DNA from: Desulfoglaeba alkanexedens ALDC
GTDB taxonomy: Bacteria; Desulfobacterota; Syntrophobacteria; Syntrophobacterales; DSM-9756
DNA: 64,000 nucleotides
Reading direction: 5' to 3'
Assembly (NCBI RefSeq): GCF_005377625.1
Contig: NZ_CP040098.1
Span: 1,853,501 to 1,917,500, forward strand
Below are positions 1 through 50,548 of the stretch, in pieces. The first letter of the stretch is position 1. Each line of letters begins with the position of its first letter. The notes under the pieces were generated by a model. It had not been told where the DNA came from. It did not search any database and was given only the letters and a program-made list of their open reading frames with translations. Both the position numbers and the translations under genes were made by a program.

Positions 1-921
1 GTGGTCCTGTTTTCGGGCGGGGAACCCTTCGTGCGGCCGGACTTGCTCGAACTGGCCGCTTACGCCGTGGATCGCGGTATGCGCGCGGTTATCTCCACCA
101 ACGGCACGCTCATCACGCCGACACTCGCAAAACAACTCAAAACCGTCGGCCTCTCCTACGTGGGGATCAGCCTGGACGGCATGGAAGACGTCAACGACAG
201 ATTCCGAGGCGTTCCCGGTTCCTTCCGCCGCGCTCTCGATGGCATCGCCGCCTGCGCGGAAGCCGAAATCAAGGTGGGGCTTCGGTTCACCATGAACCGG
301 TTGAACGCCGCGGAAATTCCGGCGATCTTCGACCTCCTGGAGGAACGGGACATTCCCCGCGTCTGCTTCTATCACCTGGTGTACGCCGGGCGCGGAAGCG
401 CCCTGATGAAAGAGGACCTGTCCCACGAAGAAACCCGCCGTGCGGTGGACCTGATCATCGATCGAACAGCGGACCTCCACCGCCGCGGCAAGCCCAAAGA
501 AGTGCTCACCGTGGACAATCACGCGGACGGCCCCTACCTCTATTTGCGGCTCCTCAGAGAAGGTTCGCCGCGCGCCGCCGAAGTCCTGGAACTGCTCAAG
601 ATGAACGAAGGAAACAGTTCAGGACGCGGCATCGGGTGTGTGAGCTGGGACGGGACGGTCCACGCCGATCAGTTCTGGCGGCACCACGCCTTTGGCAATA
701 TCCGGGAGCGGCCCTTCAGCGAAATCTGGACGGATCTCTCGGACCCCCTGATGGCACGGCTTAAAGAGAAGAAACGCTACATCAAGGGGCGGTGCGCCCG
801 GTGCCGCTGGCTCGATATCTGTGCCGGCAACTTCCGCGTGCGAGCCGAAGCGGCGACCGGAGATGTGTGGGCGCCCGATCCGGCATGCTACCTCACCGAT
901 GAAGAAATCGGTCTCCAGTGA
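1..921 (+). CDS. ahbC: AhbC, 12,18-didecarboxysiroheme deacetylase (radical SAM), 5' end outside window
   Basis: The reading frame is open from the first base, so the N-terminus, including the CxxxCxxC cluster motif, lies outside the window. The visible part starts at the SAM-binding GGEP motif (SGGEPF) and continues through the radical-SAM barrel (STNGT, ISLDG). It ends in a cysteine-rich tail (CARCRW...CAGN) that would bind an auxiliary 4Fe-4S cluster. In the AhbC family this enzyme removes the acetate side chains of 12,18-didecarboxysiroheme to give Fe-coproporphyrin III, in the cytoplasm. The assignment rests on family resemblance (HLVYAGRGS and the C-terminal GNFRVRAEA) and on its place directly before hemB and ahbD, the grouping seen in sulfate reducers. 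A NirJ-type enzyme is the main alternative, but no other heme d1 gene is nearby. Confidence 0.85.
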
Positions 922-955
922 TTGCAAACGCTTCCGGCAAGAGGAGTCCACGACC

Positions 956-1933
956 ATGATGTTTCCCGATTATCGCCCTCGACGGTTTCGCCGAACCGAA
1001 AACCTCCGACGCATGATCCGCGAGACCACGCTTACCGTGGATCGGCTGGTGTATCCGCTGTTCGTTTCGGCCGGTGAGGGGCTCCGAAACCCCGTGGCGT
1101 CCATGCCCGGAGTCTTCCAGCTGTCGGTGGACGAACTCCTCAAGGAAGTGGACTCGGCTGCCGCACTCGGCATCCCGGCTGTGCTTCTCTTCGGACTGCC
1201 CGAAACGAAGGACGAAATAGGGAGCCAGGCATCGGCCGCACATGGCCCCGTTCAGACAGCCACCCGCCGCATCAAAGAACATCACCCGGAGCTGGTCGTG
1301 ATCACCGACGTGTGCCTCTGCGAATACACAAGCCACGGTCACTGCGGCATCCTGCGGGGCCGCGAAGTGGACAACGACGCCACCCTGGAAGCGCTGTCCG
1401 CCGTAGCCCTGTCGCACGCCAGGGCCGGTGCGGACGTAGTGGCTCCATCGGACATGATGGACGGCCGTGTGGGCGCCATAAGGGGCGTTCTGGACGACAA
1501 TGGGATGGAAAACGTAGGCATTCTTGCTTATTCGGCCAAATACTGTTCCGCCTTCTATGGCCCGTTCCGGGAGGCTGCCGATTCCGCCCCCCAGTTCGGC
1601 GACCGGCGCACCTACCAGATGGATCCCGCCAATTCCGACGAAGCCCTCCGCGAAACCGCCATGGACATCGAGGAAGGGGCCGACATGGTGATGGTGAAGC
1701 CCGCTTTGCCCTACCTCGACATCATCCGGCGCGTCAAGGAAGAGTTCGATTGGCCGGTGGCCGCCTACAACGTGAGCGGCGAATACGCCATGGTCAAGGC
1801 GGCGGCTTCCATGGGCTGGTTGAACGAGGAGCCCGTCATGATGGAAATGCTTCTGTCCATCCGCCGGGCCGGTGCGGACCTCATCATCACCTATTTCGCC
1901 AAAGACGCCGCAAGGCTCCTGCGTGAGGCGTGA
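956..1933 (+). CDS. hemB: Porphobilinogen synthase (delta-aminolevulinic acid dehydratase)
   Basis: This enzyme condenses two 5-aminolevulinate molecules to porphobilinogen, the shared early step of all tetrapyrrole synthesis. I chose the ATG at 956 because AGAGGAG lies about 10 bases upstream; the frame is open further 5' but that part overlaps ahbC. The product is 325 aa, normal for the family. The metal-site stretch [12 protein letters not shown] has the cysteines of zinc-type HemB. The two active-site lysines are seen in [13 protein letters not shown] and VKPALPYLD. It sits 34 bases after ahbC and 13 bases before ahbD, so the three are probably co-transcribed for siroheme-dependent heme synthesis. 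Confidence 0.97.
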
Positions 1934-1946
1934 GAGGAAGAGATCA

Positions 1947-3086
1947 TTGACGATACAGGCCTCGGATTTTCCTTCGGGCACCGGACCGCTCGAAAGCCAC
2001 GCGCCGGACACGCCCGCTTCAGATCATTCCCTGCGGCTTGTCGCCTGGGAAGTGACCCGGAGCTGCAACCTTGCTTGCATCCATTGCCGTGCCGCCGCTC
2101 AGAACCGCCCTTATCCCGGTGAACTCGCCACGGAGGAATGCTTCAGGTTTCTCGACGACATCGCCGGGTTCGCGCGACCCATCGTCATTCTGACCGGCGG
2201 GGAACCGCTCCTGCGCCCGGATATTTTCGATATCGCGGCCTATGGGACCCGCCTGGGGCTCCGTATGACCATGGCCCCCAACGGCACACTGGTGAGCCCG
2301 GAAAATGCCCGCCGCATGGTCGAAACAGGCATCCAGCGGATCAGTATCAGCCTGGACGGCGCCACCGCCGCATCCCACGACGCTTTCCGCGGCATGCCCG
2401 GAGCGTTCGACGGAGCCATTCAAGGCATCCGTTGCGCCCGGGAAAGCGGCCTCCCGTTTCAGGTCAACACCACCATCACCGCACAGAATCTGCATGAACT
2501 GCCCGCCATCCAGGAACTGGTGGTGTCGCTCGGAGCCGTCGCTCACCACATTTTCTTGCTGGTGCCGACCGGTCGCGGAAAGAACCTGGAAGAACAGGTG
2601 ATCAACGCCCGCCAGTACGAGGAAACCCTCCACTGGTTCTACGAACAGCGCGAGCGCGTCCCCCTTCAATTGAAGGCCACCTGCGCACCGCACTACTACC
2701 GCATCCTCAGGCAGCGGGCCCGCGAGGAAGGACGCCCGGTGGATATGCAGACCTTCGGGCTCGACGCCGTGACCCGGGGCTGCCTCGCGGGGACCGGTTT
2801 CTGCTTCCTTTCCCATGTGGGTACGGTCCAGCCCTGCGGCTACTTGGAGCTCGACTGTGGAAACATCCGGCGGAGGCCGTTCCGGGACATCTGGGAAAAC
2901 TCGGAGGTGTTTCAGCGATTGCGGGATTTTCGAAACTACGAGGGAAAGTGCGGGCGCTGTGAATATATCCGGGTCTGCGGCGGGTGTCGAGCTCGAGCCT
3001 ACGAGGCCACGGGAAACTACCTGGCCGAAGAACCTCTTTGCCTGTATGAACCCCGCGGTCGAACCGCGTCTTGCCCTTCAAAGTAA
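1947..3086 (+). CDS. ahbD: AhbD, Fe-coproporphyrin III decarboxylase (heme synthase, radical SAM)
   Basis: This radical SAM enzyme oxidatively decarboxylates two propionates of Fe-coproporphyrin III to vinyl groups, giving heme b in the siroheme-dependent pathway. The protein shows CNLACIHC (the CxxxCxxC cluster site) near residue 33, TGGEPL, and a C-terminal cysteine cluster (KCGRCEYIRVCGGCRARAYE) for a second Fe-S cluster. The start is taken as the TTG at 1947 because GAGGAAGAG precedes it at proper spacing. An in-frame ATG at 1872 lies inside hemB and has no such site. At 379 aa it fits the family. Gene order ahbC-hemB-ahbD supports AhbD over a generic SPASM protein. Confidence 0.88.
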   Translation: MTIQASDFPSGTGPLESHAPDTPASDHSLRLVAWEVTRSCNLACIHCRAAAQNRPYPGELATEECFRFLDDIAGFARPIVILTGGEPLLRPDIFDIAAYGTRLGLRMTMAPNGTLVSPENARRMVETGIQRISISLDGATAASHDAFRGMPGAFDGAIQGIRCARESGLPFQVNTTITAQNLHELPAIQELVVSLGAVAHHIFLLVPTGRGKNLEEQVINARQYEETLHWFYEQRERVPLQLKATCAPHYYRILRQRAREEGRPVDMQTFGLDAVTRGCLAGTGFCFLSHVGTVQPCGYLELDCGNIRRRPFRDIWENSEVFQRLRDFRNYEGKCGRCEYIRVCGGCRARAYEATGNYLAEEPLCLYEPRGRTASCPSK

Positions 3087-3189: not shown

Positions 3190-4236
3190 TCAGCGGTTCA
3201 CCACGAACACGTCGATCTGGTGTCTACGGTCGGGTTCCGCATCCGTCGCCAGCGTAAGCGTGGCATGCTGCTGCGTGCCCTTGGGGACGTGTTCGAGTTT
3301 GGGTTCCACCTGTAGTGTATAACCCTGGCCTTCCGGCAAAGGTTGCTGCCGGATGGAAAGCAGCCGGTCGTCGAAGGTCAGTTGGGTGATGCGAAACGGC
3401 CTGTCCTCGTTGTTTACGATAAGGATGCTCCCCGATCGGGGGGGACTCTGAGCGTTCAACCGTCCAACCAGCACATTGGTGGGCCGGATGCCGATGACCC
3501 CCTCGATCACGCCCGTCACCCGGACCTGGATCTTAGGTTTTTGGGGATGGTCGGTGAAGCAGGTGAGCATCCCCTGATAGTTTCCGCTCGAAGCTCGATT
3601 GGCCACAACGAGACGGTAGTGAGTCCCCTCGGTCACCGTTTCAAGGCGGAATTCAACCCGGTCGCCCAGATCCGTTTCCACCTTTTGGATATGAAACGGC
3701 CCGGAGCGTGAAATAAGGTCCAGACTCTGTTCGGTCAGCGCCTTGGCCACACCGCGGAAGACAACGCTGGGCACGGGCTTCACCTCAATGACGGGCCTTA
3801 CCGTCCCTTTGATCAGCAGAGCGAGACGCGGACTCTTGGGATCGTTGGTGAACACGGTGGCCCCTTTGGCCACCCGCCCGTGATAACCTCGAAGATCGAC
3901 CTTCAAAGTGATGACCCCCTCGCCACCGGGAGGGACGGCCCGATCGAAATCGGACACCGCGCAGCCTCAGCCCGGGCGCACGTTGAGGATCTTGAGCTCC
4001 GCATCGCCCGAGTTCTTCACCTTGAACGCATGAACGATCCAGCCGCCTTCGTCGATTTCGCCGAACTCGTATTCCGGTTCGGCGATTACTACGGCGGGCG
4101 CGGCATCGCCTGCCGGTTGCTGAGCCGTTTGCGCCGGTTTCGTCTCCGCTGGAACGGCCGGTGAGTCCTCGGCAAGAACCGGCATCGCCGTACAAGTCAC
4201 GAAAAACACCAAACAACCGATCCAACTCGACAGCAT
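3190..4236 (-). CDS. Exported DUF1573 protein with in-frame TGA (candidate selenocysteine at residue 90)
   Basis: Two frames separated only by one TGA codon (bases 3969-3967) read as one 348-residue protein. It starts at the ATG at 4236, preceded by AAAGGAGA. Residues 1-24 are a signal peptide (WIGCLVFFVTCTAMPVLA). A Pro/Ala/Gln-rich linker follows, then a DUF1573 domain (EYEFGEIDEGG, HAFKVKNSGDAELKI), then two further Ig-like repeats. DUF1573 normally has a CGC motif after the first strands; here it reads R-P-G-TGA-G-C-A-V, so TGA sits exactly at the first cysteine. The 255 residues after the TGA are intact and conserved-looking (PPGGEG). I infer selenocysteine insertion; a TGC-to-TGA nonsense change or sequencing error is the alternative. 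Function of the family is unknown. It is convergent with ahbD. Confidence 0.7.
3938..3955 (-). promoter_or_regulatory. Hairpin just after the in-frame TGA, candidate bacterial SECIS element
   Basis: On the minus strand, 12-29 bases after the TGA of the DUF1573 gene, the sequence folds as a perfect five-pair stem CCGAT / ATCGG around a TTCG loop, extendable by a G-C and a U-G pair. Position and size are right for a bacterial SECIS element, which lies in the coding region directly after the UGA. The loop lacks a G in its first two bases, which SelB usually prefers, so this is only suggestive. Confidence 0.35.
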
Positions 4237-4332: not shown

Positions 4333-5412
4333 TCAGCCGGAAGCGACGTCTCCGTTCACTTTTCGCAGCAGAACGCTCAGGGGAACCACCTGGACCCCTT
4401 CCTTTTCGAAGCGAGGCGCTTCTTCCGCCAACACCTTTAAGGTGACGGCATGAGGATGCCCGATGGCGACGGCGGTCCCCTCCACCTTCGCCTTGCGAAT
4501 CAGGGCCTGCACCTGCTTTCGCACGAAGGCTTCGGTGGGGGTATGATCGAGAAAAATATCCCGCCTCAAGGCGGGAACTTGCAGGTCTCGTGCGGAAGAC
4601 AGCCCGGCCGTCTTGGCGCTGGTATAGCTGTCCAGAAAAAAGAGTCCTCGTCGGCGAAGTTCACGCAGGACGATCCGCATCTTTTCCGGATCCTCTGTAA
4701 AACGGGACCCCATGTGGTTGTTCATCCCTACCGCGTACGGCGTGGCGTCCAGAGCCGCCTGGAGCGTTTCTTCCACCTGTTCTTCGGTCATCGAAAGCAG
4801 AAGCGCCCCAGGACCTGGATCCGTCTCAGGAAATCCCTGGGGTTCCATGGGCATGTGCACTATGACCTCTCGGCCGCGGGCGTGGACCCGTTCCGCCACT
4901 TCCCGGCTGTGCCGCAGGTGGGGCAGGACGGAAAAGGTGACGGGGAAGGGAAGGCTCAAAAATTGATTGGCAATGTCAATATCTTGGCCGAAATCGTCGA
5001 TCACGATGGCCGCAAAACCTTGAGGCGGAAGCGGTATCGGCCTGGTTTCGGGTTCCGGCTCGAGCTGGGGAGCGGCGGGCGGGCTCAGTCGTAAGGCCAG
5101 CTCGCTTTCCGTCCGTTCGCGTTCCGCGCCGGGCCCTTGAGCTGCAGGAGGCCCGACGGTCTCCTTGGCCGTGGAGGCCGGACTTCGCGGTACGGACCGC
5201 GCAGGCTCGGACGAAGCCCTGTTGGACGCGGCTTCGGAAACCGGGCCGGATTTACGCGTCCCGGTGGCGTTTTGCGACGAGGGTCCGCCCCAGTAAATCA
5301 GGCTGGCCAGGACCACCACCGCCAGGAACCAAACCGTGAACAACGGCAGCAAGGCCGGGTTCCGTTTCTTCCCGGCCTTGCGCTTTGTCGTCGTCTTCTC
5401 CTTCTTCGGCAT
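4333..5412 (-). CDS. Divergent polysaccharide deacetylase family protein (YibQ/DUF610 type)
   Basis: A membrane-anchored protein of 359 aa. A basic N-terminus (KKEKTTTKRKAGKKR) is followed by one transmembrane helix (about residues 19-39). A Pro/Ala/Ser/Glu-rich linker runs to about residue 125. The rest is a polysaccharide-deacetylase-like barrel (AIVIDDFGQD, HMPMEPQG, MNNHMGSR, AIGHPHA). The conserved Asp and His residues of this subfamily are present, but the reaction is not established. The start at 5412 follows the ctpA stop by 19 bases. In many Proteobacteria this gene follows envC-ctpA, as here, so it probably acts in peptidoglycan or envelope processing at the septum. Confidence 0.85.
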   Translation of the reverse strand: MPKKEKTTTKRKAGKKRNPALLPLFTVWFLAVVVLASLIYWGGPSSQNATGTRKSGPVSEAASNRASSEPARSVPRSPASTAKETVGPPAAQGPGAERERTESELALRLSPPAAPQLEPEPETRPIPLPPQGFAAIVIDDFGQDIDIANQFLSLPFPVTFSVLPHLRHSREVAERVHARGREVIVHMPMEPQGFPETDPGPGALLLSMTEEQVEETLQAALDATPYAVGMNNHMGSRFTEDPEKMRIVLRELRRRGLFFLDSYTSAKTAGLSSARDLQVPALRRDIFLDHTPTEAFVRKQVQALIRKAKVEGTAVAIGHPHAVTLKVLAEEAPRFEKEGVQVVPLSVLLRKVNGDVASG

Positions 5413-5431
5413 CCGCGCTTCCACGATTCTG

Positions 5432-6751
5432 CTACTGAAACTGCATCTGCGCCATGATCTTGTAGCCCTTGAGCAAGTCGACAGCGCGCCGGAGCTGGTT
5501 ATCCTTTTCGAGGATCCGCGTCGGTTGCTCCACCTCCCCTTCATCCTCGTTCGCTACGGGTTCCTCGCCCTCCGGGGCTTCCATGTGCCGCGGCAAATCC
5601 TTCTCCCGCACCCGGTGGTCCGGCTCTTCCGCAGCGCCGGAAGCAACCGGAAGCTCCCGCTTCACCAGGATGTCGGGTTCAATGCCTTTGGCCTGAATGG
5701 ATCGACCGCTCGGCGTGTAGTAGACGGCGGTGGTGAGCCGTACCGCGGAACCGTCATTGAGCGGAATGACGGTCTGGACCGAACCTTTTCCAAAGGTGTC
5801 CTCGCCCAGGATGACGGCTCGTTTATGGTCTTGGAGCGCCCCCGCCACGATCTCGGATGCGCTGGCACTGCCGCCGTTGACAAGAACCACCATCGGGTAG
5901 GGACGAGGCGTTCCGTTCTTCTGCGCTTCAAACTTCATCTGCTGGCTCTCGCGGCGGCCCCCGGTGTAAACGATCAAGCCCGAATCAAGAAACTCGTCGG
6001 CCACCGCCACGGCCTGATCCAGCAGGCCGCCCGGATTGTTCCTGAGATCGAGCACAAGACCCTGAAGGGGCCCGCTGCCCTTTTCCAGTCGATCCAGCTC
6101 CCTGGCCAGGTCCCGGCTCGTACCGCTCTGAAAACTGGAAATCCGCACGTACCCGATCCCTTTTTCGATCTCCTGGCTGCGTACGCTTTGAACCGAAATG
6201 ATGTCCCGTGTCAGCTCGAACTCCAACGGTTTGCGTTCCCCTTCCCGAAGGATGGTCAGCTGGACTTTCGTCCCCTTGGGGCCGCGCATCTTCTGAACGG
6301 CTTCCATGAGGGTCATCTCCTGGGTGGGGGTGCCATCGATCTTGATGATCTGGTCGTTGGCCTGGATGCCCGCCCGGTCCGCCGGCGTATCCTCGAGCGG
6401 CGCGACCACCGTCAGGACTCCGTTCCGCAAAGTGATCTCTATGCCGATCCCCCCGAATTTCCCTTTGGTCTCGATCTGAAGCTCTTTGTAATCTTCGGGC
6501 CGCAGAAAGGACGAATGCGCATCGAGTTCCCTCAGCATACCGCTGATCGCCCCGTACACCAGCTTCTCGCTGGCGACTTCCTCCACGTAATGATCCTGGA
6601 TCAGGTTCATCACATCGCTGAAAAGTTTCAGGCGTTCGTATACCGTCTTTTCGTCGGCGGTGGCCTTCGCCGCCTGGAAGGACACCCACCCGAAGGCCAA
6701 AATCGCGATGCTGATGGCCAGAACCAGTAACTTCTTCTTTCGTTTAAGCAT
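5432..6751 (-). CDS. ctpA: Carboxy-terminal processing serine protease, S41 family
   Basis: A periplasmic C-terminal processing protease of 439 aa. Residues 1-31 form an N-terminal signal or anchor helix (LLVLAISIAILAFGWVSF). A PDZ domain follows (about residues 100-180, GGIGIEI, TPADRAGI). The S41 catalytic core has the nucleophile in GSASASE and the general-base lysine in GKGSVQ. The C-terminal tail is acidic (EAPEGEEPVANEDEGEVE). It lies 10 bases downstream of the EnvC-like gene and before the deacetylase, so all are likely one transcript with ftsEX. Members of the family trim exported proteins and, in some species, control peptidoglycan hydrolases. Confidence 0.95.
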   Translation of the reverse strand: MLKRKKKLLVLAISIAILAFGWVSFQAAKATADEKTVYERLKLFSDVMNLIQDHYVEEVASEKLVYGAISGMLRELDAHSSFLRPEDYKELQIETKGKFGGIGIEITLRNGVLTVVAPLEDTPADRAGIQANDQIIKIDGTPTQEMTLMEAVQKMRGPKGTKVQLTILREGERKPLEFELTRDIISVQSVRSQEIEKGIGYVRISSFQSGTSRDLARELDRLEKGSGPLQGLVLDLRNNPGGLLDQAVAVADEFLDSGLIVYTGGRRESQQMKFEAQKNGTPRPYPMVVLVNGGSASASEIVAGALQDHKRAVILGEDTFGKGSVQTVIPLNDGSAVRLTTAVYYTPSGRSIQAKGIEPDILVKRELPVASGAAEEPDHRVREKDLPRHMEAPEGEEPVANEDEGEVEQPTRILEKDNQLRRAVDLLKGYKIMAQMQFQ

Positions 6752-6761: not shown

Positions 6762-7874
6762 TCACCGTTTGGCTACTTTTCCCAGATTCACCCAGTCCCG
6801 CACATCAACAGGCCGGCCGCCGTGTCGAATCTCGAAGTACAGCTTAGGCCCGTCGATACTTCCCGTCTCACCCACCACCCCCACCACTTCCGACTCCCCG
6901 ACTCGATCTCCCGCCTTTTTGCGCAGGCGGTCCAGATGAGCCATCAAGCTGTAATAATGCTGGCCATGGTCGATGATCATCAGGTTTCCGTAACCCTTGA
7001 ACCACCCCGCAAACACCACCACCCCGGGATGAATCGCCTTCACGGGTTCTCCCGCCGGGGCCCGAAGGATAATGCCATTATTATATAAAATTGAATAATA
7101 TGGAGAATCTTTTTTTCCTTCTTTCCCGGTGAACACCTGTCCGGAGGCGGGAAGGGGGAGTTGGCCGCGCCGCTGCGAAAACGGGACGGGGTCGGCCTCT
7201 GGATCGGCGGCACGGCTCTTCCGCTCGCCGAAAACGGCGCCGCCGGGCTCTCCAGCCTTCAGGCGGGGTTCTTCCTGAAGGCATACCAAGAGCTGTATCT
7301 TTTCGTTTCTGAGCTCTTCCAGGACCGCCTTCTTCTCCTCCAGCCGCGACTGGACAGCGGCACGGCTTCTTTCCTTTTCTTCAAGTTCCCTCCGGAGCGC
7401 TTCCAGGGACGTCTGTTCCGCGTTGAGCGCGGCGAACAGAACCTTATCGCTTTTCAGCAGCTCACCCATCGCCTTGACGGCATGGATCCCCGACTCCAGG
7501 TCGCCCGCCGTCAGCAGGGGAAACAGGTAGCCCATTCCACTGAACTTGTAGAGCGCCACCAGGCGGGATTCCAGTTTCTCCCGCAACGCCTGAAGGGCGA
7601 TCCGGGACTGCTCGAGGCGTTCCTCCAGGTCCTGCCGGCGCTCTTCGAGCGCTTCACGTTCCCTGGCTGCTTCCTCCAGTTTTGAAGCGACCCGAGTCAT
7701 TTTTGCTTCCAGGGTCTCCAGTTGATCGAGAATCCGTTCCCGCCGTCCATCGGCCCCCGAAGCGAGCTCCGCCGGACCCTCGGGTCGGGCGGCCCGTCCG
7801 GCAGGTACCGTGCAAACCCACGCGAGGAGAGCGATCAGAGTCACCACGAGGGAGTCGGTCATCCGCTTCGTCAT
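6762..7874 (-). CDS. envC: EnvC-like murein hydrolase activator (coiled coil plus LytM/M23 domain)
   Basis: A secreted 370-aa protein. After a signal peptide (residues 1-29) it has a long coiled coil (about 35-200, many Glu/Leu/Arg heptads such as LEKERRQDLEERLEQ-type stretches). A linker leads to a C-terminal LytM domain (about 255-365, PAGEPVKAIHPG, MIIDHGQHYYSLMAHLD, GPKLYFEIRHGG). The zinc ligands of active M23 peptidases are not all there (YFEIR in place of HxH), as in EnvC proteins that activate amidases rather than cut murein. It sits 7 bases from ftsX, and FtsEX is the known regulator of EnvC in E. coli, so this is a coherent division module. Confidence 0.88.
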   Translation of the reverse strand: MTKRMTDSLVVTLIALLAWVCTVPAGRAARPEGPAELASGADGRRERILDQLETLEAKMTRVASKLEEAAREREALEERRQDLEERLEQSRIALQALREKLESRLVALYKFSGMGYLFPLLTAGDLESGIHAVKAMGELLKSDKVLFAALNAEQTSLEALRRELEEKERSRAAVQSRLEEKKAVLEELRNEKIQLLVCLQEEPRLKAGEPGGAVFGERKSRAADPEADPVPFSQRRGQLPLPASGQVFTGKEGKKDSPYYSILYNNGIILRAPAGEPVKAIHPGVVVFAGWFKGYGNLMIIDHGQHYYSLMAHLDRLRKKAGDRVGESEVVGVVGETGSIDGPKLYFEIRHGGRPVDVRDWVNLGKVAKR

Positions 7875-7881: not shown

Positions 7882-8775
7882 TCAGACCTTCAGGAACCGT
7901 CTCAGTGCCAGCCAGGACCCGAGGCAGCTCAACAAAACGCCGACCAGGAGCAACCCGAAAAGGCATTCCAGGATCTCTTGCGGCCCCAGCGCAAGGGTCT
8001 CGGCCAGCGGTTCGGGAAGAATGCGCCGCGCCGCCAGCAAGGCAAACGTCAGGGGCCCTGCGGCCAGGACGCCCCCCATCACGCCCTGAAGTAATCCTTC
8101 GAGAACAAACGGCAGCCGAATGAATCCCTCCGTCGCTCCAACGATCGAATAAACTTCGATTTCGTTCCGCCTTGCGAGGACGGTCAACTTCACCGTGTTG
8201 GAGACGATGAGAGTGGTCGCAAAAAAGAGCAAAGCCACCAGAGCGATTCCCACCACCTGGATCAAGTGCAGCGCCCCTTCGATCTTCCGCTGCCAGACGC
8301 TTCCCGAATAGACGTCCTCCACTTCGGCGATGGCTTCGATCTTTTCCACGAGCCCGTCCATCTCCTCGGCCGTAACTGCTCCAGGGCGAAACGAAATTTC
8401 CAAAGAATCCGGCAACGGATTGCTTTCAAAGCCGTCGAAAACGTCCCGCCAGCGGTCCAGCCTTTCCTGAAGACGCCGCCAGGCCTCTTCCCTGGGCACG
8501 GGGACCACTGAATCCACCTCAGGCCACCTTTCCAATTCTCTGGCCAGGGCGTGCAGGCGGTCGTCGGAGACACCATCTCGCAGGTAGGCGACCGCCTTGG
8601 CTTCCGCCATCCATTGAGGCACCCATTGCCGGACCGCCCAAAACGCGACCGAAAAAGTCCCCAGAAGGAGCAGGCAGAGCGCCAGCGTGAGAACACTCAG
8701 CGAAGTGGCGAAGAGGTTCACCTTCAGGTTTTCGACCGCTCGCCGCAGGTGAAAAAGGAATCGTTCTATAACCAA
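7882..8775 (-). CDS. ftsX: Cell division protein FtsX (permease subunit)
   Basis: The membrane partner of FtsE in the ABC-like complex that transmits a cytoplasmic signal to periplasmic murein hydrolases. The protein of about 297 aa has a first helix at residues 24-46, a periplasmic domain of about 110 residues (RLHALARELERWPEVDSV) and three more C-terminal helices (FtsX_C, NTVKLTVLARRNEIEVYSIVGA). I chose a TTG start at 8775 because GGGGGAT precedes it and it overlaps the ftsE stop by 10 bases, giving the family's normal length. The frame is open further upstream, but that translation is antisense-like noise inside ftsE. Confidence 0.92.
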   Translation of the reverse strand: MVIERFLFHLRRAVENLKVNLFATSLSVLTLALCLLLLGTFSVAFWAVRQWVPQWMAEAKAVAYLRDGVSDDRLHALARELERWPEVDSVVPVPREEAWRRLQERLDRWRDVFDGFESNPLPDSLEISFRPGAVTAEEMDGLVEKIEAIAEVEDVYSGSVWQRKIEGALHLIQVVGIALVALLFFATTLIVSNTVKLTVLARRNEIEVYSIVGATEGFIRLPFVLEGLLQGVMGGVLAAGPLTFALLAARRILPEPLAETLALGPQEILECLFGLLLVGVLLSCLGSWLALRRFLKV

Positions 8776-9554
8776 GGATCCCCCGTTGGCCTGCCGGAGC
8801 AGGGCTGCCGGCCGATGGGTGCGTCTTCGTGGAACCGCCCGCCTTCGATCCGCACCTTCCGGCTTTCGGGAAAAAGCCCCGGCAATCGCGCGTCGTGGGT
8901 GGCCACAATCACCGTCGCTCCGCGGAAATGGATCTCCTTGAACAGCTCCATAACCCGCTCGGACGAACACTCGTCCAGGTTCCCGGTGGGCTCGTCCGCC
9001 AGAACGATTTTGGGATCGTTGGCCACCGCCCGGGCAATGGCCACCCGCTGCTGTTCCCCCCCGGACAGCTGCCGGCACGGCAGCGACGCTTTGGCCTCGA
9101 GCCCCACGAAACGAAGGATGTAATGCACTTTCTTCTGGATGTAGGCGCTGGGTCTGCCGACGACTTCCAGGGGCAGAGCCACGTTCTTCAAAACGGAAGC
9201 CGATCCCAGGAGCTTGAAGTCCTGGAAGACCATCCCCACCTGCCGCCTCAAAGCGGGAATGTCGCGCCTGGGCAGGCGTCTCAAGTTTCGGCCGTCGATG
9301 ACGATCTGCCCCTCACTGAGGGGTTCCAAGGCCAAAAGAAGCTTCAAGAAGGTGGTCTTTCCAGCACCGCTCGGCCCCATCAGAAAAACGAACTGGCCTT
9401 GCTGGATCTGGAGGTTGGCATCCCGGATCACCTCGTGTCCCCTGACATAGCGCTTGCCTACATTGAAACACTGGATCAGCGCCCCTCCCGCTCCGGCTTC
9501 CGGCCGAGATCCCCCGAACCCAGGGCGCAGCGGGGACGCCCGCCTTTCACTCAT
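8766..9554 (-). CDS. ftsE: Cell division ATP-binding protein FtsE
   Basis: ABC ATPase of 262 aa partnering FtsX. Walker A is GPSGAGKTT, the signature is LSGGEQQR, Walker B is IVLADEPTGNLD and the H-loop is VATHDARL. The start at 9554 has GGAGG eight bases upstream; in-frame codons further 5' have none. Compared with typical FtsE (about 225 aa) it carries an extra N-terminal stretch of about 22 residues rich in Arg, Gly and Ala and a short extra C-terminal tail (RQPCSGRPTGDPWL). It is first in the ftsE-ftsX-envC-ctpA-deacetylase series. Confidence 0.95.
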   Translation of the reverse strand: MSERRASPLRPGFGGSRPEAGAGGALIQCFNVGKRYVRGHEVIRDANLQIQQGQFVFLMGPSGAGKTTFLKLLLALEPLSEGQIVIDGRNLRRLPRRDIPALRRQVGMVFQDFKLLGSASVLKNVALPLEVVGRPSAYIQKKVHYILRFVGLEAKASLPCRQLSGGEQQRVAIARAVANDPKIVLADEPTGNLDECSSERVMELFKEIHFRGATVIVATHDARLPGLFPESRKVRIEGGRFHEDAPIGRQPCSGRPTGDPWL

Positions 9555-9915
9555 GCCGCCCTCCAGAAACGCCCGAAACCGGTTCCCACCGGCAACCGGA
9601 AGACGCCCCGTTTCGCAACCCCGCCGGAGAACGGTCCGGGATCGGGCGGACAACCGTCCCAGTCCCTCGAAAATTCAGGGAATCCCGTTATCGCCTTTAC
9701 AGCGGAGGCTCTTGATCGTTCCAATCTCCGGCAATTCATAAAACCGGCGGTGCCCGCTCCCCTGGCGATCCTTTCCCGCGCGCCATATCCTTCAGGCAAG
9801 ACGACCATCAGGTCTTAGGAGATTGCCTCATCCCTGTCAAGGCGGTATAAAACCGCTTGAGCGACCCCGGAACGTTCCGGCGTTCCGGAAAACCACGAAC
9901 ACACGGGAGCGGAAG
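9555..9915. other. Divergent intergenic region between ftsE and a hypothetical gene
   Basis: This 361-base stretch separates two divergent genes and must hold both promoters. It contains the palindrome GGAACGTTCC near 9870 and a small hairpin GCGGT-ATAAA-ACCGC near 9842-9857 whose loop could also serve as a -10-like TATAAA. I see no convincing paired -35/-10 and no gene. Confidence 0.4.
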
Positions 9916-38599: not shown

Positions 38600-38661
38600 T
38601 CGTTTCATCTGCCCGGCGGTTGCCGCCGCCGTGAGCCGGATATGCGTCAAATATGTAAGAT

Positions 38662-38819
38662 GCGTTGCAGTTCTTTCGGGATGAAAAGGGAACCCCGTGC
38701 GAATCGGGGACGGACCCACCGCTGTAACCGGGGACGAAGACGGCAGCATGCCACTGGAATCAATTCCGGGAAGGCGCCGTTGATGGGTGATCCGGGAGTC
38801 AGAAGACCTGCTGCAACGC
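38662..38819 (+). promoter_or_regulatory. Cobalamin (adenosylcobalamin-type) riboswitch
   Basis: The closing P1 stem is exact: GCGTTGCAG (38662-38670) with CTGCAACGC (38810-38818). Between them are the conserved B12-box elements: AAAAGGGAA, CCGTGCGAATCGGGGACGG, CCACCGCTGTAACCGGGGA, CATGCCACTGG, CCGGGAAGGC, TGATGGGTGATCC and GGGAGTCAGAAGACCTGC. This aptamer binds cobalamin and here switches off transport genes when B12 is plentiful. It precedes a terminator and a TonB-dependent receptor. Confidence 0.96.
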
Positions 38820-38882
38820 CGATGAAGTGCCTTTTGCCGGAAGGGGAATGACGGCCGGGGGCGAGGTACGGGAAAAAATGGG

Positions 38883-38915
38883 AGCCCGAAACCGCAAGGT
38901 TTCGGGCTTTTTTTG
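38883..38915 (+). terminator. Intrinsic terminator acting as riboswitch expression platform
   Basis: Perfect 11-pair stem AGCCCGAAACC / GGTTTCGGGCT around GCAA, followed by seven T. It lies 64 bases after the cobalamin aptamer and before the receptor gene, so cobalamin probably controls transcription termination here. Confidence 0.92.
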
Positions 38916-39024
38916 TTCCCCGTACCATACCCGCTCCGCCGCCGGAATGGGCCGGTGCTTCGGCGGCCGGCCGGTTCCAGATCACCACACATGCCGCCGC
39001 CAGGGGCGGGGAGGGGAGGAATCC

Positions 39025-39248
39025 ATGCAGTTAGGTAGCCGGAACGTATCGATGATGGATGTACGGCGCTCAATTTTGACATGCAAGAGAACGGTGAATA
39101 CGGCGCATTCAATGTCGATGTTGTCGCCGCAAAGGTCGCTCCGGCAATCGGCGTTGGCGCCGTTGGCACAATCGTCGGCGTCGGCGTGGGAGCCGTCAGG
39201 GATGACGTTGTCGACGCCTTGGCGGATAATGATCCCGCCGCTTATTGA
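39025..39248 (+). pseudogene. Small frame between the riboswitch and the TonB receptor, probably frameshifted
   Basis: An ATG at 39025 has a strong site (GGGGAGGAATCC) but its frame gives an unnatural Ser/Arg/Thr-rich translation. In the -1 frame, from about 39060 to a TGA at 39248, the translation is protein-like: TALNFDMQENGEYGAFNVD, then a Gly/Val helix APAIGVGAVGTIVGVGVGAV, ending DPAAY. A one-base indel between 39052 and 39060 would join them into one peptide of about 74 residues. I do not recognise it. Its stop overlaps the start proposed for the receptor. Confidence 0.4.
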
Positions 39249-41391
39249 TACTGATATTGCATTTATCGCATTGCGGCTACTGATACCGCTGATGGTGGCG
39301 GGCGGGTTATTGTTGTTGGTGTCCGTCCTGCCGGTGCGGGCCGCGGATGACTCTGACGTGCATCGCCTCGACGAGATCGTCGTGACCGCCACCCGCTCCG
39401 CCGCCCGCAGCTTCGACGTGGCGGCACCGGTGGCGGTGGTAGACGAAAAGCGGCTGGCGGAAACCGCGCCGGCGTCCGCCGCCGATGCCTTAGACGAGGT
39501 GCCCGGGGTGTCGCTGGTGCGCGGCGGTTCCTGGGAAGCGCACCCGGTCATTCGCGGCTTGGGCGGCAGCCGCGTGCTGGTGCTCTATGACGGCGACAGG
39601 GAGGTTAACCTGTGGTCCGGGCGGGCGCCGCTGACGCCGTTTATCGACGTCGGCAGTATCGCCCGCATCGAGGTAGTCAAGGGCCCGGCCTCGGCCCTCT
39701 ACGGCACCGACGCCCTCGGCGGGGTGATCAATATCATCACCAAAGAGGTGGATTTTGCCGACAGCGACACCTGGCGCTTCGAAAACACCGTCAACGGCCG
39801 CTATGCATCCGTTGACGAGGGCTGGTTCGGCCGCTACGAACTGGCCGCCGGGGGCAAGGGTTTTGGTTTCCGCCTCGGCCTTTCCGGCCGCGACGCTAAC
39901 AACTACGAGGACGGCAACGGCGACGAGGTGAACAATTCACATTTCGAAAACCGTAATCTCGATTTCAAGGCGCTCCATAACATCGCCGATAACCACCGGC
40001 TGACCGCCGCGGTGCGGGTCAACGAAATCGACGACATGGGAGTACCCCAAAAGGATCCCACGGCGCCGTTTTCCCATTTCGATCATTTCGATACCGGATC
40101 ATACAAGCTCGGCTACGAGGGCAGGGAACTGGGTCTGTTCGACGAGATTCAGGCCCGGCTGTTCTACGTCGACCAGGACCGCGCTTTCGCCGGGTATCTT
40201 CCAAGCCCCAGCCAACCGGTGTACACCCTGAAAACCAACGATATCGAGACCTCGGCCGCCGGCGCCTCGCTGCAGCTGACCGTGACGCCCGGTGCGGCCC
40301 AGCAGCTGATCGGCGGCTTCGAACTGGTGCGCGAGGACAGCGACTCCGATGAGACCCAGGTGATCCACCGGAACAAGGATGACAGCATCGCCAAGCGGCT
40401 GACCTTTCAGCCGGTGCCCGATGCCGAGCGGGTGCATTTCGGCATCTTCGCCCAGGACGAGATCACCATCGGCAATCGGCTGACGCTCATCGCCGGCGGG
40501 CGCTACGATTACTTCACCGCCGATGCCGATGATGTCACCTTCACCGACGAGCGCTTCGACGGCAAGAGCAAGCTCACCTCGACCACCGCTTCGATCAACC
40601 GTTTCAGTGATGAGAGCGACAGCGCCGCGACCTTCAATCTCGGCCTGGTGTATGCCCTCACCGAACATCTGCACCTGACCGGTACCGTCGGCAGCGGCTT
40701 CCGGGCGCCGGACATCTTCGAGCGCTACTCGACGCGCGGCGGCGGCGTGATCTACATCGGCGACCCGAACCTTGATCCCGAGTATTCCTACAACTTCGAT
40801 GCCGGTATTAAGGCCAGTTATGCCCGTTTTCGCGGCGGGATCGACGGGTTCTACAACCGCGTCGACGACTACATCGACACCGTGCGCCAGGCGGAATCAT
40901 TCATTTCCGGGGTTCCTACCTACAAGTACACCAACGTCCAGGATGCCGAACTCTACGGGTTCGACGGCGCCGCTGAGGTGCTGCTAACCGCCAACCTGAC
41001 GCTGTTCGGTACAGTGGCGTATGTGGTCGGCGAGGACCGCGACAGCGGCGACCGGTTGAGTAACATTCCGCCGCTGAACGGCACCCTCGGCGCCCGCTGG
41101 GAGGCGGCCGCGGGCGACCGGCTGACCTACTGGTTCGAGGCCGCCGGCGAGTTCTTCGATCGCCAGGACCACCCGGCGCCGGGGGAGTCGGAAACCGCGG
41201 GCTACGCTACGGCGAACCTGCGTACCGGGCTGCGCATGCCGGCACTTGGCCCCCTGCACGACGTAATGCTGGCCCTCAACGTCGAGAACCTCTTCGATAA
41301 GTACTACCGGTCGCACCTGCGCCTGGGCCAAAGTGATTTCATCCCCGAGCCGGGGTGCAACGTGATCACCTCGCTGCGGTTTTCGTTCTGA
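39229..41391 (+). CDS. TonB-dependent outer-membrane receptor, likely for cobalamin
   Basis: A beta-barrel receptor of about 720 aa. A signal peptide (LLIPLMVAGGLLLLVSVLPVRA) is followed by a TonB box (LDEIVVTATR). The plug domain has ALDEVPGVSLVRGG, VIRGLGGSRVLVLYDGD and SALYGTDALGGVINIITKE. The barrel ends in VENLFDKYYRSHLRLG and a terminal Phe. I place the start at the ATG at 39229, giving a normal signal peptide; the frame stays open to 39025 but that extension looks like out-of-frame translation. Riboswitch control and the following btuF/C/D-like genes point to B12 or a cobinamide-type corrinoid. Confidence 0.9.
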   Translation: MIPPLIDTDIAFIALRLLIPLMVAGGLLLLVSVLPVRAADDSDVHRLDEIVVTATRSAARSFDVAAPVAVVDEKRLAETAPASAADALDEVPGVSLVRGGSWEAHPVIRGLGGSRVLVLYDGDREVNLWSGRAPLTPFIDVGSIARIEVVKGPASALYGTDALGGVINIITKEVDFADSDTWRFENTVNGRYASVDEGWFGRYELAAGGKGFGFRLGLSGRDANNYEDGNGDEVNNSHFENRNLDFKALHNIADNHRLTAAVRVNEIDDMGVPQKDPTAPFSHFDHFDTGSYKLGYEGRELGLFDEIQARLFYVDQDRAFAGYLPSPSQPVYTLKTNDIETSAAGASLQLTVTPGAAQQLIGGFELVREDSDSDETQVIHRNKDDSIAKRLTFQPVPDAERVHFGIFAQDEITIGNRLTLIAGGRYDYFTADADDVTFTDERFDGKSKLTSTTASINRFSDESDSAATFNLGLVYALTEHLHLTGTVGSGFRAPDIFERYSTRGGGVIYIGDPNLDPEYSYNFDAGIKASYARFRGGIDGFYNRVDDYIDTVRQAESFISGVPTYKYTNVQDAELYGFDGAAEVLLTANLTLFGTVAYVVGEDRDSGDRLSNIPPLNGTLGARWEAAAGDRLTYWFEAAGEFFDRQDHPAPGESETAGYATANLRTGLRMPALGPLHDVMLALNVENLFDKYYRSHLRLGQSDFIPEPGCNVITSLRFSF

Positions 41392-41477
41392 AACCGTGGT
41401 GTGCGGTGAATTAGCGCGGGCGATGCCTGATGCATCACCCGACGGGGTTATCCTTTCGAGCTGGATGCGGTGTCGTG

Positions 41478-42575
41478 ATGTGCTGGAATCGTCTTCTTGG
41501 CTGGCTGTTGCTCATTAATGTGCTGCTGGTGCCGGCGCTGACCACGCCGCTGGCAAGGGCCGCTACCAGGGTGGTGACCGACCTGCAGGGCCGGGCGGTG
41601 CCGGTGCCGGTGCCGGCGAAACGCATCGTCGCTCTGCGTGGGGCCCTGGGGCTTATATGCTATCTCGATCTCGCCGACCGGGTGGTGGGGGTAGAGGATC
41701 ACGAAACCCGGGAGACGGAATGGGTCGGTGCGGCGGGTCGTTCCTACCGCATGGCCAACCCACGGCTCGGCCGTCTGCCGGTTGTCGGCAGCCGCAACCG
41801 TCCGGACGCGGAGCGGCTCATGGCGGCGGCCCCCGAGGTCATCTTCGCCGCCGGCGGTGATCTCCGCTTCGCCGACAACCTCCAGAGGCAAACCGGCATT
41901 CCGGTGCTTTTCGTCGACAACGGCGACCTTGCCGAGCAGCGCAAAGCGTTCTTTGCTTCCCTGCGGTTGATGGGTATGATCTGCGGCGCCGAGGCCCGGG
42001 CGGCGGCGGTCATCGACCGGGTGACGGCGGCGGTTGCCGACCTGCGGCGGCGTACCGCCGATATCCCCGCTGCCAACCGCCCGAGCACCTACATCGGCGG
42101 GATGAACTTCCGCGTCGCCCATGGCCTGCTGGGTACCAGCCGGCGCTATCCGCCCTTCATCCTGCTCGGGGCGGACAACGTCGCCGACCGGGTAAGCGTC
42201 GACCGGGGCATGGTGAAGGGGCGCTTCAGCATCGATCTGGAAACCCTGCTGGCGCTGGATCCGGAGATTATCTTCGTTTGCGAGGGCGGCCTGGAGCTGG
42301 TGCGCCGGGATCTTTGCAACCCCGCCATGGGGGAGCTTCGGGCGGTACGGGAGGGTAAGCTGTACGGCGTTTTGCCGCACTACTACGCCGCCAGCCCCGA
42401 CACCGTGCTGGCGGAAACCTACTTCATGGGTAAAGTCCTTTATCCCGAACGGTTCGCCGATATCGACACTGCCACTCTCGCCGACGATCTCTACCGCTTC
42501 TTCGTCGGCCGGCCGCTGTACGCCGAGATGACGCAAATCTTCGGTGGCTTCAAGCGTCTGGAGACGGGTCCGTGA
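41478..42575 (+). CDS. Periplasmic corrinoid/siderophore-type ABC substrate-binding protein
   Basis: A BtuF/FecB-type binding protein of 365 aa with a signal peptide (WLLLINVLLVPALTTPLARA). Features are the N-terminal VPAKRIVALRGALGLICYL and NRPDAERLMAAAPEVIFAAGG; later come NVADRVSVDRG and the C-terminal SPDTVLAETYFMGKVLYPERF. Riboswitch control indicates a corrinoid. It shares its C-terminal pattern with the binding protein at 45396 on the other strand, so the two systems are paralogous. Confidence 0.85.
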   Translation: MCWNRLLGWLLLINVLLVPALTTPLARAATRVVTDLQGRAVPVPVPAKRIVALRGALGLICYLDLADRVVGVEDHETRETEWVGAAGRSYRMANPRLGRLPVVGSRNRPDAERLMAAAPEVIFAAGGDLRFADNLQRQTGIPVLFVDNGDLAEQRKAFFASLRLMGMICGAEARAAAVIDRVTAAVADLRRRTADIPAANRPSTYIGGMNFRVAHGLLGTSRRYPPFILLGADNVADRVSVDRGMVKGRFSIDLETLLALDPEIIFVCEGGLELVRRDLCNPAMGELRAVREGKLYGVLPHYYAASPDTVLAETYFMGKVLYPERFADIDTATLADDLYRFFVGRPLYAEMTQIFGGFKRLETGP

Positions 42576-43642
42576 TGACCGCCCCGGCCGACATCGAGCG
42601 GTACCGCCGCCGGCGCCGCCGGCGCCAGCTCTGGCTTACCGGCGCGGCGCTGCTTCTTGCCTGCACGGCGCTGGTAGCCATGACCACCGGCGCGATTTCC
42701 GTTTCCCCGCATGATTTTTTCGGCCTGTTCAGGGAGGCGCCGGCGGGGCTGGCGGCGCGGGTCATCTGGTACGTGCGGCTGCCCCGGCTGGTCGGGGCCA
42801 TCCTTGGCGGTGCCGGTTTCGCCGTCGCCGGGATGGTGCTGCAGGCCATTTTACGCAATCCCCTGGCCTCGCCCTCGACCCTGGGGATCTCCCAGGGCGC
42901 GGCCTTCGGCGCGGCGCTGGGCATCATGCTGCTGAGTCTCAACGATGCCACCGCCGGTAGCCAGGGGGCGCAGCTCAGCCGCTGTCCAGCGCTGGTGAGC
43001 CTGCTCGCCTTCGGCTGTTCCCTGGCGACCACGGCCTGCATCGTCGGCCTCGCGGCGCTGCGCCGCGCAGGCCGCGAGGCCATCGTCCTTGCCGGGGTCG
43101 CCCTCGGCGCATTCTTCATGGCCGGTACCACCGTCATCCAGTATTTCGCCGACGAGACCCAGCTGGCCGCCATCGTCCGGTGGAGCTTCGGCGATGTCGG
43201 CCGGGCGACGTGGCCGGAGCTGCGGGTCATCGCCGTGGTGGTTGCCGCCGGCACCGGCTATTTCTTCTTTCAGTCCCTGTGGTTCAACGCCCTGCTGGCC
43301 GGCGGCGAGGTTGCCCGCAGCCTCGGAGTGGCGGTCTCCCGGCTGCGCCTCTGCGGAATGGTGGTCGCCGCCATGATGACCGCCGTCATCGTCACCTTCT
43401 TTGGCGTGATCAGCTTCATCGGTCTGGTGGCGCCGCACATGGCCCGCCTGCTGGTGGGCGAGGACGCCCGAACACTGCTGCCGCTGACGGCGCTCATCGG
43501 CGCCGTGCTGCTGCTGGGCGCCGACCTTCTCGGGCGGCTGATTCTTGCCCCGGTGGTGCTGCCGGCCGGGGTGGTGACCGCTTTCATGGGGACGCCGGTA
43601 TTTCTGTTGCTGCTCTTTGGGGGGCGTGGTTCGTGGAGGTAA
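42575..43642 (+). CDS. FecCD/BtuC-type ABC transporter permease
   Basis: A 355-aa permease with about ten helices. Family signatures are VRLPRLVGAILGGAGFAVAG, QAILRNPLASPSTLGISQGA, WSFGDVGRATWPEL and FFGVISFIGLVAPHMARLLVG. The N-terminus is unusually Arg-rich (RYRRRRRRRQ). Its ATG overlaps the binding-protein stop by one base (TGATG). It imports the ligand delivered by the upstream binding protein. Confidence 0.92.
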   Translation: MTAPADIERYRRRRRRRQLWLTGAALLLACTALVAMTTGAISVSPHDFFGLFREAPAGLAARVIWYVRLPRLVGAILGGAGFAVAGMVLQAILRNPLASPSTLGISQGAAFGAALGIMLLSLNDATAGSQGAQLSRCPALVSLLAFGCSLATTACIVGLAALRRAGREAIVLAGVALGAFFMAGTTVIQYFADETQLAAIVRWSFGDVGRATWPELRVIAVVVAAGTGYFFFQSLWFNALLAGGEVARSLGVAVSRLRLCGMVVAAMMTAVIVTFFGVISFIGLVAPHMARLLVGEDARTLLPLTALIGAVLLLGADLLGRLILAPVVLPAGVVTAFMGTPVFLLLLFGGRGSWR

Positions 43643-44385
43643 GGGTTGCCGACCTGAGTTTTGCCTACGGACGTCGGGAGGTGCTGAACGGTTTTGCCTG
43701 CCACCTGCAGCCGGGAAAGCTGACCGCCATCCTCGGCGTCAACGGGGCGGGGAAATCGACCCTGCTCAAGATCATCGCCCGGCTCGAACGGCCCCGGGCC
43801 GGCACCGTCATGCTGGCTGCCGACGATCTTGCCGGGCTGTCGCCGCGCCGCCTCGCCCGGCGGCTGGGTTACGTCGCCCAGCACCACGTCGTGCCCCGCC
43901 TGACGGTGTTCGAATACCTGCTCATCGGCCGCACGCCCTACCGCCGGCAACGGTACCACGCCGCGGACGAGGAGATCGTCGCCGCGGTTTTGGCCGACAT
44001 GGGGCTTACGGCATTCGCCGACCGCTGGCTCGGGGAGCTGAGCGGCGGCGAGCTGCAGCAGGTGGTCATTGCCCGCGCCCTGGTGCAGCGGCCCCGGGTG
44101 CTGCTGCTGGACGAGCCCACCGGCAACCTCGATCTGAAGAACCAGGTGGCGGTGCTGGCGGCGGTGCGGGAGCGGGCCCGGCGGGACGCGCTGACCGTAG
44201 CCTTCAGCATTCACGATGTCAACCTGGCGGTGCGTTTCGCCGACCGGTTCCTGCTCCTGCGTGACGGCCGGGTGCTGGCCGCCGGCGGTTCCGAGGTGCT
44301 GGCGCCGGAAACCTTGAGCCGGGTCTACGACGTGCCGCTCACGGTGTACCGCATCGATGGCCGGCTGCTCGTGCTGCCGGCCTGA
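43633..44385 (+). CDS. Corrinoid/siderophore-type ABC transporter ATP-binding protein
   Basis: An ATPase of about 250 aa. Walker A is GVNGAGKSTLL, signature LSGGELQQVVIARAL, Walker B VLLLDEPTGNLD, H-loop SIHDVNLA. I chose the GTG at 43633, overlapping the permease end by 10 bases, because its product begins at the family N-terminus (VEVRVADLSFAYG). It is the last gene of the riboswitch-controlled set; 90 bases later a second riboswitch-like element begins. Confidence 0.92.
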   Translation: MEVRVADLSFAYGRREVLNGFACHLQPGKLTAILGVNGAGKSTLLKIIARLERPRAGTVMLAADDLAGLSPRRLARRLGYVAQHHVVPRLTVFEYLLIGRTPYRRQRYHAADEEIVAAVLADMGLTAFADRWLGELSGGELQQVVIARALVQRPRVLLLDEPTGNLDLKNQVAVLAAVRERARRDALTVAFSIHDVNLAVRFADRFLLLRDGRVLAAGGSEVLAPETLSRVYDVPLTVYRIDGRLLVLPA

Positions 44386-44474
44386 CGGAAATGGGCGGGC
44401 AATGAAAGATGAACGCGGCGGCTGAACGCAAGGGAACGCCGATGAATCGCTAGCCGGATAACGCTTGCGGATCA

Positions 44475-44600
44475 AGGGAAGGAAGTGGAAAACTTCCGCC
44501 GCCCGGCGACTGTAACCGGGAGGAAAACAGCGGTTGCCCCCTGTGTAAGGATGGTTGTCGCATGATCTGAATCCATCTATAATCCAGTACTTCGGGGGCG
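44475..44600 (+). promoter_or_regulatory. Divergent cobalamin-riboswitch-like element with no gene downstream
   Basis: It has CAAGGGAAGGAAGTGGAAAA, CCGCCGCCCGGCGACTGTAA followed by CCGGGAGGA (the B12-box core), CCCCTGTG and a late ATAATCCAGTACTTC similar to the AGCCAGGAGACC segment. Peripheral stems are shorter than in the element at 38662, and no closing P1 is obvious. On the + strand nothing codes between here and the convergent gene at 44755, so it is an orphan or a remnant. The 155 bases after it hold nothing I recognise. Confidence 0.5.
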
Positions 44601-44754
44601 ATGGTTGATGACCGTGCGGCCGGAGAACTAACGGCACACGACGTCGGGCGGTACCGGGGCGGGTGCTCGGAATCCAAACACATCGAAGGCGCCCTCCGGG
44701 GGAGTGTGTCTCACGGGCCCCCGGAAAAGTCGCTGAAGCCGATCGATTCACGTG

Positions 44755-45360
44755 TCAGTTGGCGGCGCAGCCCCGGCAGAGCCGCCGGCCGTCGACGGAC
44801 ACCAGCTTGGAGACCATGGTGGGCTCTCCACAGCGTTCACAAGGCTCCGAAGACTCGATCCTCGCCTTGTCCGGCACTTCCGTTTCCACCGCCCGCACAC
44901 TGAAAAGAGCCTCGAGCGGCGCTTCGAGCACATCACAGCTCCGCTTGAAATGGAGTGAGTTGAACCGCTCCCTTTCCTCCTCAGTGGCTTCGCCTCGGAT
45001 GAGCTTCTGGAGCAGAGCCATGTGCTCCGAATCGGGCGCAAACGCTCCCGGCTTCAGGCTGACCCTCACGCCTTTTCCGGAATCGCGGCTCATGAGAGTG
45101 AGCGCCATCTTGCCGTAATCCTTGAAGACAAAATTTCCCTTCCCAAAGGTGCAGCCTGTGAGCACCTGAACGGCGTCCGCGGCACAGGCGTCCGTTTCCA
45201 CGATGGCGACGAGCTCTTCGTCTTCGGCCCGATTTGCCTTGAGCCAGTCCATGGCGGCGTGCGCCGCTCGATAGCCCAGTGAAAGCCCTGGACACACGTG
45301 CCCGTGAAACCGAACACATCCCCTGAAGTCTTCCCGTTCCATGATTTCCTGTGCGGCCAT
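44755..45360 (-). CDS. FmdE family protein
   Basis: A 201-aa cytoplasmic protein. The FmdE domain covers residues 1-150 (FRGCVRFHGHVCPGLSLGYRAA, VETDACAADAVQVLTGCTFGKGN), with the His-x-C and Cys-Asp-x-C-type residues that bind metal in this family. A C-terminal zinc ribbon follows (CERCGEP, CRGC). FmdE was named from a formylmethanofuran dehydrogenase operon but its role is unclear. AGGAGGAAC precedes the start. It ends the DUF3842-cooT-ABC transporter operon, suggesting a metal-handling role. Confidence 0.88.
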   Translation of the reverse strand: MAAQEIMEREDFRGCVRFHGHVCPGLSLGYRAAHAAMDWLKANRAEDEELVAIVETDACAADAVQVLTGCTFGKGNFVFKDYGKMALTLMSRDSGKGVRVSLKPGAFAPDSEHMALLQKLIRGEATEEERERFNSLHFKRSCDVLEAPLEALFSVRAVETEVPDKARIESSEPCERCGEPTMVSKLVSVDGRRLCRGCAAN

Positions 45361-45395
45361 GATGTTCCTCCTCGTTCCTCCAAACCCCGAAGTCC

Positions 45396-48420: not shown

Positions 48421-48607
48421 CTTCTTCAAAGAAGATCTTATGGTTCACCAGGTTCATGGATTTGATCCGCCCGCGAACCGTCTTCCGGTCTCCAAAAATA
48501 CCAACCAACCGCCAAGTCCTTTCGTCTTCCGGTTCAATGACATCGACGGACTCCATCAGAAGTTCCTCCCGACCTTCCTTGAGCAGGTACGCGTTGGCTT
48601 CACACAT
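48413..48607 (-). CDS. cooT: CooT family nickel-binding protein
   Basis: A 64-aa protein beginning MCEANAYLLKEGREELLMES, then VDVIEPEDERTWRL, IFGDRKTVRGRIKSMNLVNHKI. The start fits CooT, whose N-terminal Cys2 binds nickel and whose best-known member supports maturation of nickel carbon-monoxide dehydrogenase. The ATG at 48607 overlaps the DUF3842 stop by eight bases; the frame upstream of it is not conserved. Its place between DUF3842 and a metal-type transporter suggests nickel handling by the whole operon. Confidence 0.88.
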   Translation of the reverse strand: MCEANAYLLKEGREELLMESVDVIEPEDERTWRLVGIFGDRKTVRGRIKSMNLVNHKIFFEEDA

Positions 48608-50345: not shown

Positions 50346-50548
50346 TAAAACTAATGAGATGGGAATACGTATCCTGAATGACGGATCAAGTTCAGCATGA
50401 CGAGAGAACTTTGGACTCTCAAGTTTGTAATAAAGTCGTACCAATAATATCTAGGTTAAGTTGACTCAGGGAATCAAAGTAACATTGTTCTATCCCCTTA
50501 TTTTATAATCAGCGCAGGCTATTACTACTGAAAGGAGGAGGAGTGAAC

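Follow-up and report, generated by a model that had tools for sequence, protein, structure and literature searches.

A predicted selenocysteine-encoding OS_HP2 (DUF1573) gene with two hairpins downstream of its UGA in Desulfoglaeba alkanexedens ALDC

We analyzed a stretch of 64,000 nucleotides from Desulfoglaeba alkanexedens ALDC (hereafter the window; positions are counted from its first letter), which carries near one end a minus-strand gene with an in-frame TGA. Read from ATG 4236 to the stop TGA at 3192-3190, the frame comprises 348 codons including the internal TGA at 3969-3967, its sole interruption; the 258 codons downstream hold no further internal stop. The translation from ATG 4236 runs MLSSWIGCLVFFVTCTAMPVLAEDSPAV...NVRPG-TGA-GCAVSDFDRAVPPGGEG..., and the readthrough product begins with a signal-peptide-like stretch, followed by a DUF1573 domain and then by more immunoglobulin (Ig)-like domains of the ASH/PapD-like type. 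The gene is very probably a selenocysteine (Sec)-encoding member of the OS_HP2 family. Its central features are these:

3190 to 4236, minus strand: predicted OS_HP2/DUF1573 selenoprotein gene, from NF041425 and PF07610 matches and the predicted fold
3967 to 3969, minus strand: in-frame TGA, the predicted codon for Sec at residue 90 (counted from ATG 4236), which opens the U-G-C motif, from the aligned TGA in homologues

The NCBIfam model NF041425, "OS_HP2 family (seleno)protein," matches at 115.6 bits, above its curated cut-off of 100. When the TGA is translated as Cys, PF07610 (DUF1573) matches residues 59-154 at 71.6 bits (cut-off 26.1; E 5.7e-20). The match spans the TGA, which occupies the first Cys of the domain's C-G-C motif and gives PG-U-GC-A. 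A preliminary description had placed the TGA at this Cys, had seen no decay in the 3' half, and had noted a hairpin behind the TGA. Each observation holds: the frame stays open, most of the 28 invariant columns of the family alignment lie 3' of the TGA, and a hairpin starts about 14 nt downstream of it.

The genome, a single contig of 3.37 Mb, contains selA (623.5 bits), selB (379.1 bits), and a tRNA-Sec gene, selC (75 bits), the three genes that the preliminary description had singled out as a check. Also present are selD, itself with an in-frame TGA, and, as positive-control selenoproteins, three formate dehydrogenases whose in-frame TGA is at the usual place. Across the class, selA was found in 55 of 55 genomes.

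A class-wide search of these 55 genomes retrieved 90 homologous places in 44 genomes; of these places, 79 hold one or more in-frame TGAs and the other 11 hold none. Among aligned copies, TGA falls on the same codon in 118 of 148, with Cys in 27 and Thr or Ser in 3; these counts are not a prevalence, as Cys copies were added on purpose as controls and some loci overlap. Homologues at 37-49% identity have TGA on the identical aligned codon, in contexts such as RPG-U-GC-A/T/S, and conservation extends over the full length through the TGA at 38-48% identity. Copies without TGA encode Cys (TGC or TGT), except in one genus, where Thr (ACA) or Ser (TCA) is found. Cys versions occur in related genomes (loci L038, L047, and L087), and non-TGA orthologues share the conserved locus (L082, L083, and L085), so Sec losses occurred within a Sec lineage. 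In a sample of the phylum, 142 of 395 genomes have a homologue, and the closer homologues mostly carry TGA.

Genomes hold several single-domain OS_HP2 paralogues each (L088, L089, and L154-L173); those scanned score 80-93 bits against NF041425, under the cut-off of 100. Many retain Sec while the following Cys is replaced by Ser, Thr, Leu, Ile, or Val; the motifs UGS, UGT, UGL, and UAS indicate that the vicinal Cys is dispensable there. Lipoprotein-like leaders are found in many of these paralogues, with a lipobox-like sequence (..GCAH) in several.

Downstream of the UGA, the RNA of the window gene folds into both of the following hairpins (offsets are counted from the U of UGA):

3938 to 3955, minus strand: hairpin H1 (+14 to +31), proposed part 1 of the Sec insertion sequence (SECIS); stem GUCCGAU/AUCGGGC, loop UUCG; from the synonymous-recoding test
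3917 to 3934, minus strand: hairpin H2 (+35 to +52), proposed SECIS part 2; CCCUCCC-GGU-GG(C)GAGGG, apical loop GGU; from the family-wide test

Selection on these structures was assessed by comparing folding energies, as z scores, with those of synonymous recodings that kept the codon usage of the gene in question. Over +9 to +39, mean z was -2.30 in 108 TGA genes and -0.50 in 27 non-TGA genes (Mann-Whitney p 9e-10, a value that is too small because the sequences are related), with no folding signal upstream of the UGA or at +60 to +120 in the same test. The H2 region behaved likewise, both over +33 to +54 (-1.74 in TGA genes vs -0.14 in non-TGA genes) and over +36 to +54, which does not overlap H1 (-1.03 vs -0.13), and its TGA-linked constraint persists in the two-domain subset on its own. 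Another 56 genes, taken from named genomes, replicated both signals (H1, -2.97 vs +0.29; H2, -1.53 vs +0.08). For the window gene alone, H1 is clear (+12 to +36, z = -3.8) and H2 is weak (z -0.3 over +36 to +54; -1.3 over +33 to +54). One orthologue with Thr or Ser at the Sec site (L050) keeps a perfect H1 hairpin, resembling a relic of recent Sec loss.

Codon choice within H2 points the same way. Glu at codon +16 is GAG in 80 of 84, against a background of 44% in the rest of these genes, and Pro at codon +12 is CCT in 66 of 100, compared with 20%. Among TGA genes with ATY or GTY at codon +11, GAA at +16 occurs solely where the third base of +11 is T (9/9), restoring the stem, whereas 105 genes with GAG at +16 have C there and 10 have T (Fisher p 7e-9; this value is likewise too small given relatedness, and the GAA genes include close relatives). 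RNAalifold returned a weak consensus on a gap-free alignment and none on a larger set. The reason is a one-base shift of the H1 stem from sequence to sequence (pair sums 45 and 46), and we therefore relied on the synonymous-recoding tests. Pair counts in a fixed register showed little excess over column expectation except at +14/+32 (0.72 vs 0.41), and an Rfam scan of the window returned no SECIS, just a cobalamin riboswitch.

In the published bacterial SECIS model (PMC13188914), the first or the second position of the apical loop, or both, is G, and the loop lies 16-37 nt after the UGA; the same article states that some bacterial SECIS elements lie outside the model. As in the canonical SECIS of formate dehydrogenase mRNAs, a hairpin under structural selection stands straight after the UGA inside the coding region, and the H1 loop, at about +21, lies where the fdh genes of this genome have their GGUC-type loops. 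Loop identity and spacing depart from the model: the window gene's H1 loop is UUCG. Unlike the canonical element, there is a second constrained hairpin, H2, whose loop is mostly GGN (its GG is also imposed by a conserved Gly codon) and starts at +42, a distance of 39 nt from the UGA and just beyond the published range. A literature text search turned up no second stem-loop in a bacterial SECIS, a weak indication that none has been described.

The conserved TGA, the full Sec machinery, the in-genome positive controls, and the TGA-linked RNA structure together indicate that the UGA is almost certainly read as Sec via SelB, as the preliminary description had proposed. That description also named a base-call error or chance nonsense change as a competing explanation. 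A recent TGC-to-TGA change in a Cys-type DUF1573 gene would need a single substitution, and related genomes do encode Cys versions; yet independent homologues in dozens of genomes have TGA on the same codon, the 3' part is conserved, and the RNA structure tracks TGA rather than TGC. Sequencing error and pseudogene formation were rejected on the same-codon TGA and the TGA-linked structure, and with TGA at so many homologous places an error or nonsense change is excluded for practical purposes, its probability being negligible. Scarcely more probable is a true stop, with a functional short N-terminal product and the remainder lost or translated separately from GTG 3957. An open reading frame with this GTG start does lie immediately 3' of the TGA, but termination would split the DUF1573 domain mid-way in a genome with complete Sec machinery, and at the same conserved locus (L082, genome G035) the Cys orthologues are each encoded as one continuous protein. 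Weighing against Sec decoding, conserved-locus orthologues in one related genus (g14; L050 and L083) have Thr or Ser at the site, so Sec is not indispensable, and in 93 of 108 genes G is missing from both of the first two positions of the H1 apical loop.

This G-less H1 loop and the GGN loop of H2, past the published range, suggest a two-hairpin SECIS. In the mechanism we propose, SelB carrying Sec-tRNA(Sec) would decode the UGA guided by the hairpins just downstream. A fuller version, in which H1 is an obligatory spacer, SelB reads the GGN loop of H2 39 nt out, both hairpins are under synonymous selection only if the codon is UGA, and the Sec of the short paralogues works without a vicinal Cys, is tentative, and we put it somewhat below an even chance.

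The AlphaFold model of the full-length protein (mean pLDDT, the predicted local distance difference test score, 89.4) is a chain of all-beta Ig-like domains; the modeled sequence ends in an additional Cys, residue 349, which stands for the terminal stop TGA and should do no harm. In the first domain, Sec is placed in the turn that joins strands 81-88 and 92-97. In a structure search, the DUF1573 domain resembled VesC and the ASH domains of HYDIN and CEP192 (Z 10-12); the search returned common Ig-like folds only and indicated no function. PDB 2qsv from Porphyromonas gingivalis, taken as an example of a Cys-form DUF1573 protein, shares the Ig-like fold (VIA Z 10.7) with weak profile similarity (E 0.02), and differs as a two-domain protein without the long-form architecture.

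Judging from its leader, the 348-residue protein is likely exported to the envelope, where the first domain would display the Sec-Gly-Cys motif on a turn linking two strands. Most characterized selenoproteins employ Sec for redox chemistry. A redox-active selenol/selenenyl-sulfide, acting in envelope thiol redox or peroxide repair near the division and cell-wall machinery encoded upstream, is our best guess at the role and has roughly an even chance. The main alternative for the role, that Sec is inserted and U-G-C serves as a metal or metalloid ligand, is rather unlikely. It would suit both the short paralogues, in which the Sec-Cys pair is not obligatory (Ser, Thr, or Leu for the vicinal Cys), and the ASH/PapD-like Ig folds, which are generally non-enzymatic. 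Cys takes the place of Sec in other lineages as in redox families, however, and no His/Cys metal cluster was seen, no search having been aimed at one.

From gene order in the sequence, the predicted selenoprotein gene is the end of a conserved ftsE-ftsX-envC-ctpA-yibQ cluster, whose other members in the window are listed here:

4333 to 5544, minus strand: divergent polysaccharide deacetylase/YibQ-like gene, upstream and co-directional; conserved neighbor, named from reading, with no NCBIfam match
5432 to 6751, minus strand: ctpA-like C-terminal processing peptidase (S41); conserved neighbor, from the family scan
6762 to 7874, minus strand: EnvC-like murein hydrolase activator, score under the family cut-off
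7882 to 8778, minus strand: FtsX-like, from position and reading
8766 to 9653, minus strand: FtsE cell division ATP-binding protein, 266.5 bits (cut-off 264.85)

The true start of the YibQ-like gene is probably downstream of 5544. Of the 14 relatives' loci examined, 10 have the gene 3' of ctpA and yibQ, often also with envC and ftsX, and at several relatives' loci it faces ahbC-hemB-ahbD-type genes. At 1-3086 of the window (plus strand), AhbC-like and AhbD radical S-adenosylmethionine genes surround a hemB-like gene, an arrangement of siroheme-dependent heme synthesis; these genes are convergent with the selenoprotein gene, and relatives show the same synteny.

Farther along, a cobalamin riboswitch (38651-38829, plus strand), one of about a dozen genome-wide, precedes genes for a TonB receptor and a BtuC/FhuB-type ABC transporter (38827-48429). 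The "selenium-associated operon" of the preliminary description is probably the gene at 50543-51730 (plus strand), encoding a porin like ExtI of selenite/tellurite-reduction operons (132.8 bits, under the cut-off of 150); the association with selenium stands as one with selenium-oxyanion reduction, which is no evidence for Sec insertion. A gene at 54212-55180 (plus strand) weakly matches the glutaredoxin-like protein disulfide oxidoreductase family TIGR02187, at a score (28.4 bits) well short of the cut-off.

The preliminary description knew of no Sec-containing DUF1573 protein, a claim of novelty that does not survive. The available portions of three papers tabulate the family: as OS_HP2 (pfam07610, motif UxC) in PLoS Genet 2008 (PMC2398784), a marine survey with Sec-DUF1573 in just two sequences; and as "DUF1573 domain-containing protein, UGC" in Biomolecules 2022 (PMC9312934), which cites Zhang & Gladyshev 2007, NAR 35:4952, and in AEM 2026 (PMC13188914). 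The window gene is a well-supported addition to this catalogued family, not a new family, and shares with known OS_HP2 a DUF1573 domain over cut-off, Sec first in U-G-C, and a deltaproteobacterial host. It differs from OS_HP2 as tabulated in being a long form with extra Ig-like domains and in its ftsEX-envC-ctpA-yibQ neighborhood. In those portions, OS_HP2 appears only in tables, and neither genomic context nor a two-hairpin signal is described. Beyond the catalogue, the present analysis adds the position at the cluster end, the short paralogues with Sec and no vicinal Cys, and the two-hairpin constraint.

What may be new is the use of two tandem hairpins as an insertion signal. If both are needed, gene finders that model a single SECIS hairpin with a loop G would miss or misplace such genes. 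With the mistaken claim of a new family removed, Sec-DUF1573 emerges as widespread in this phylum.
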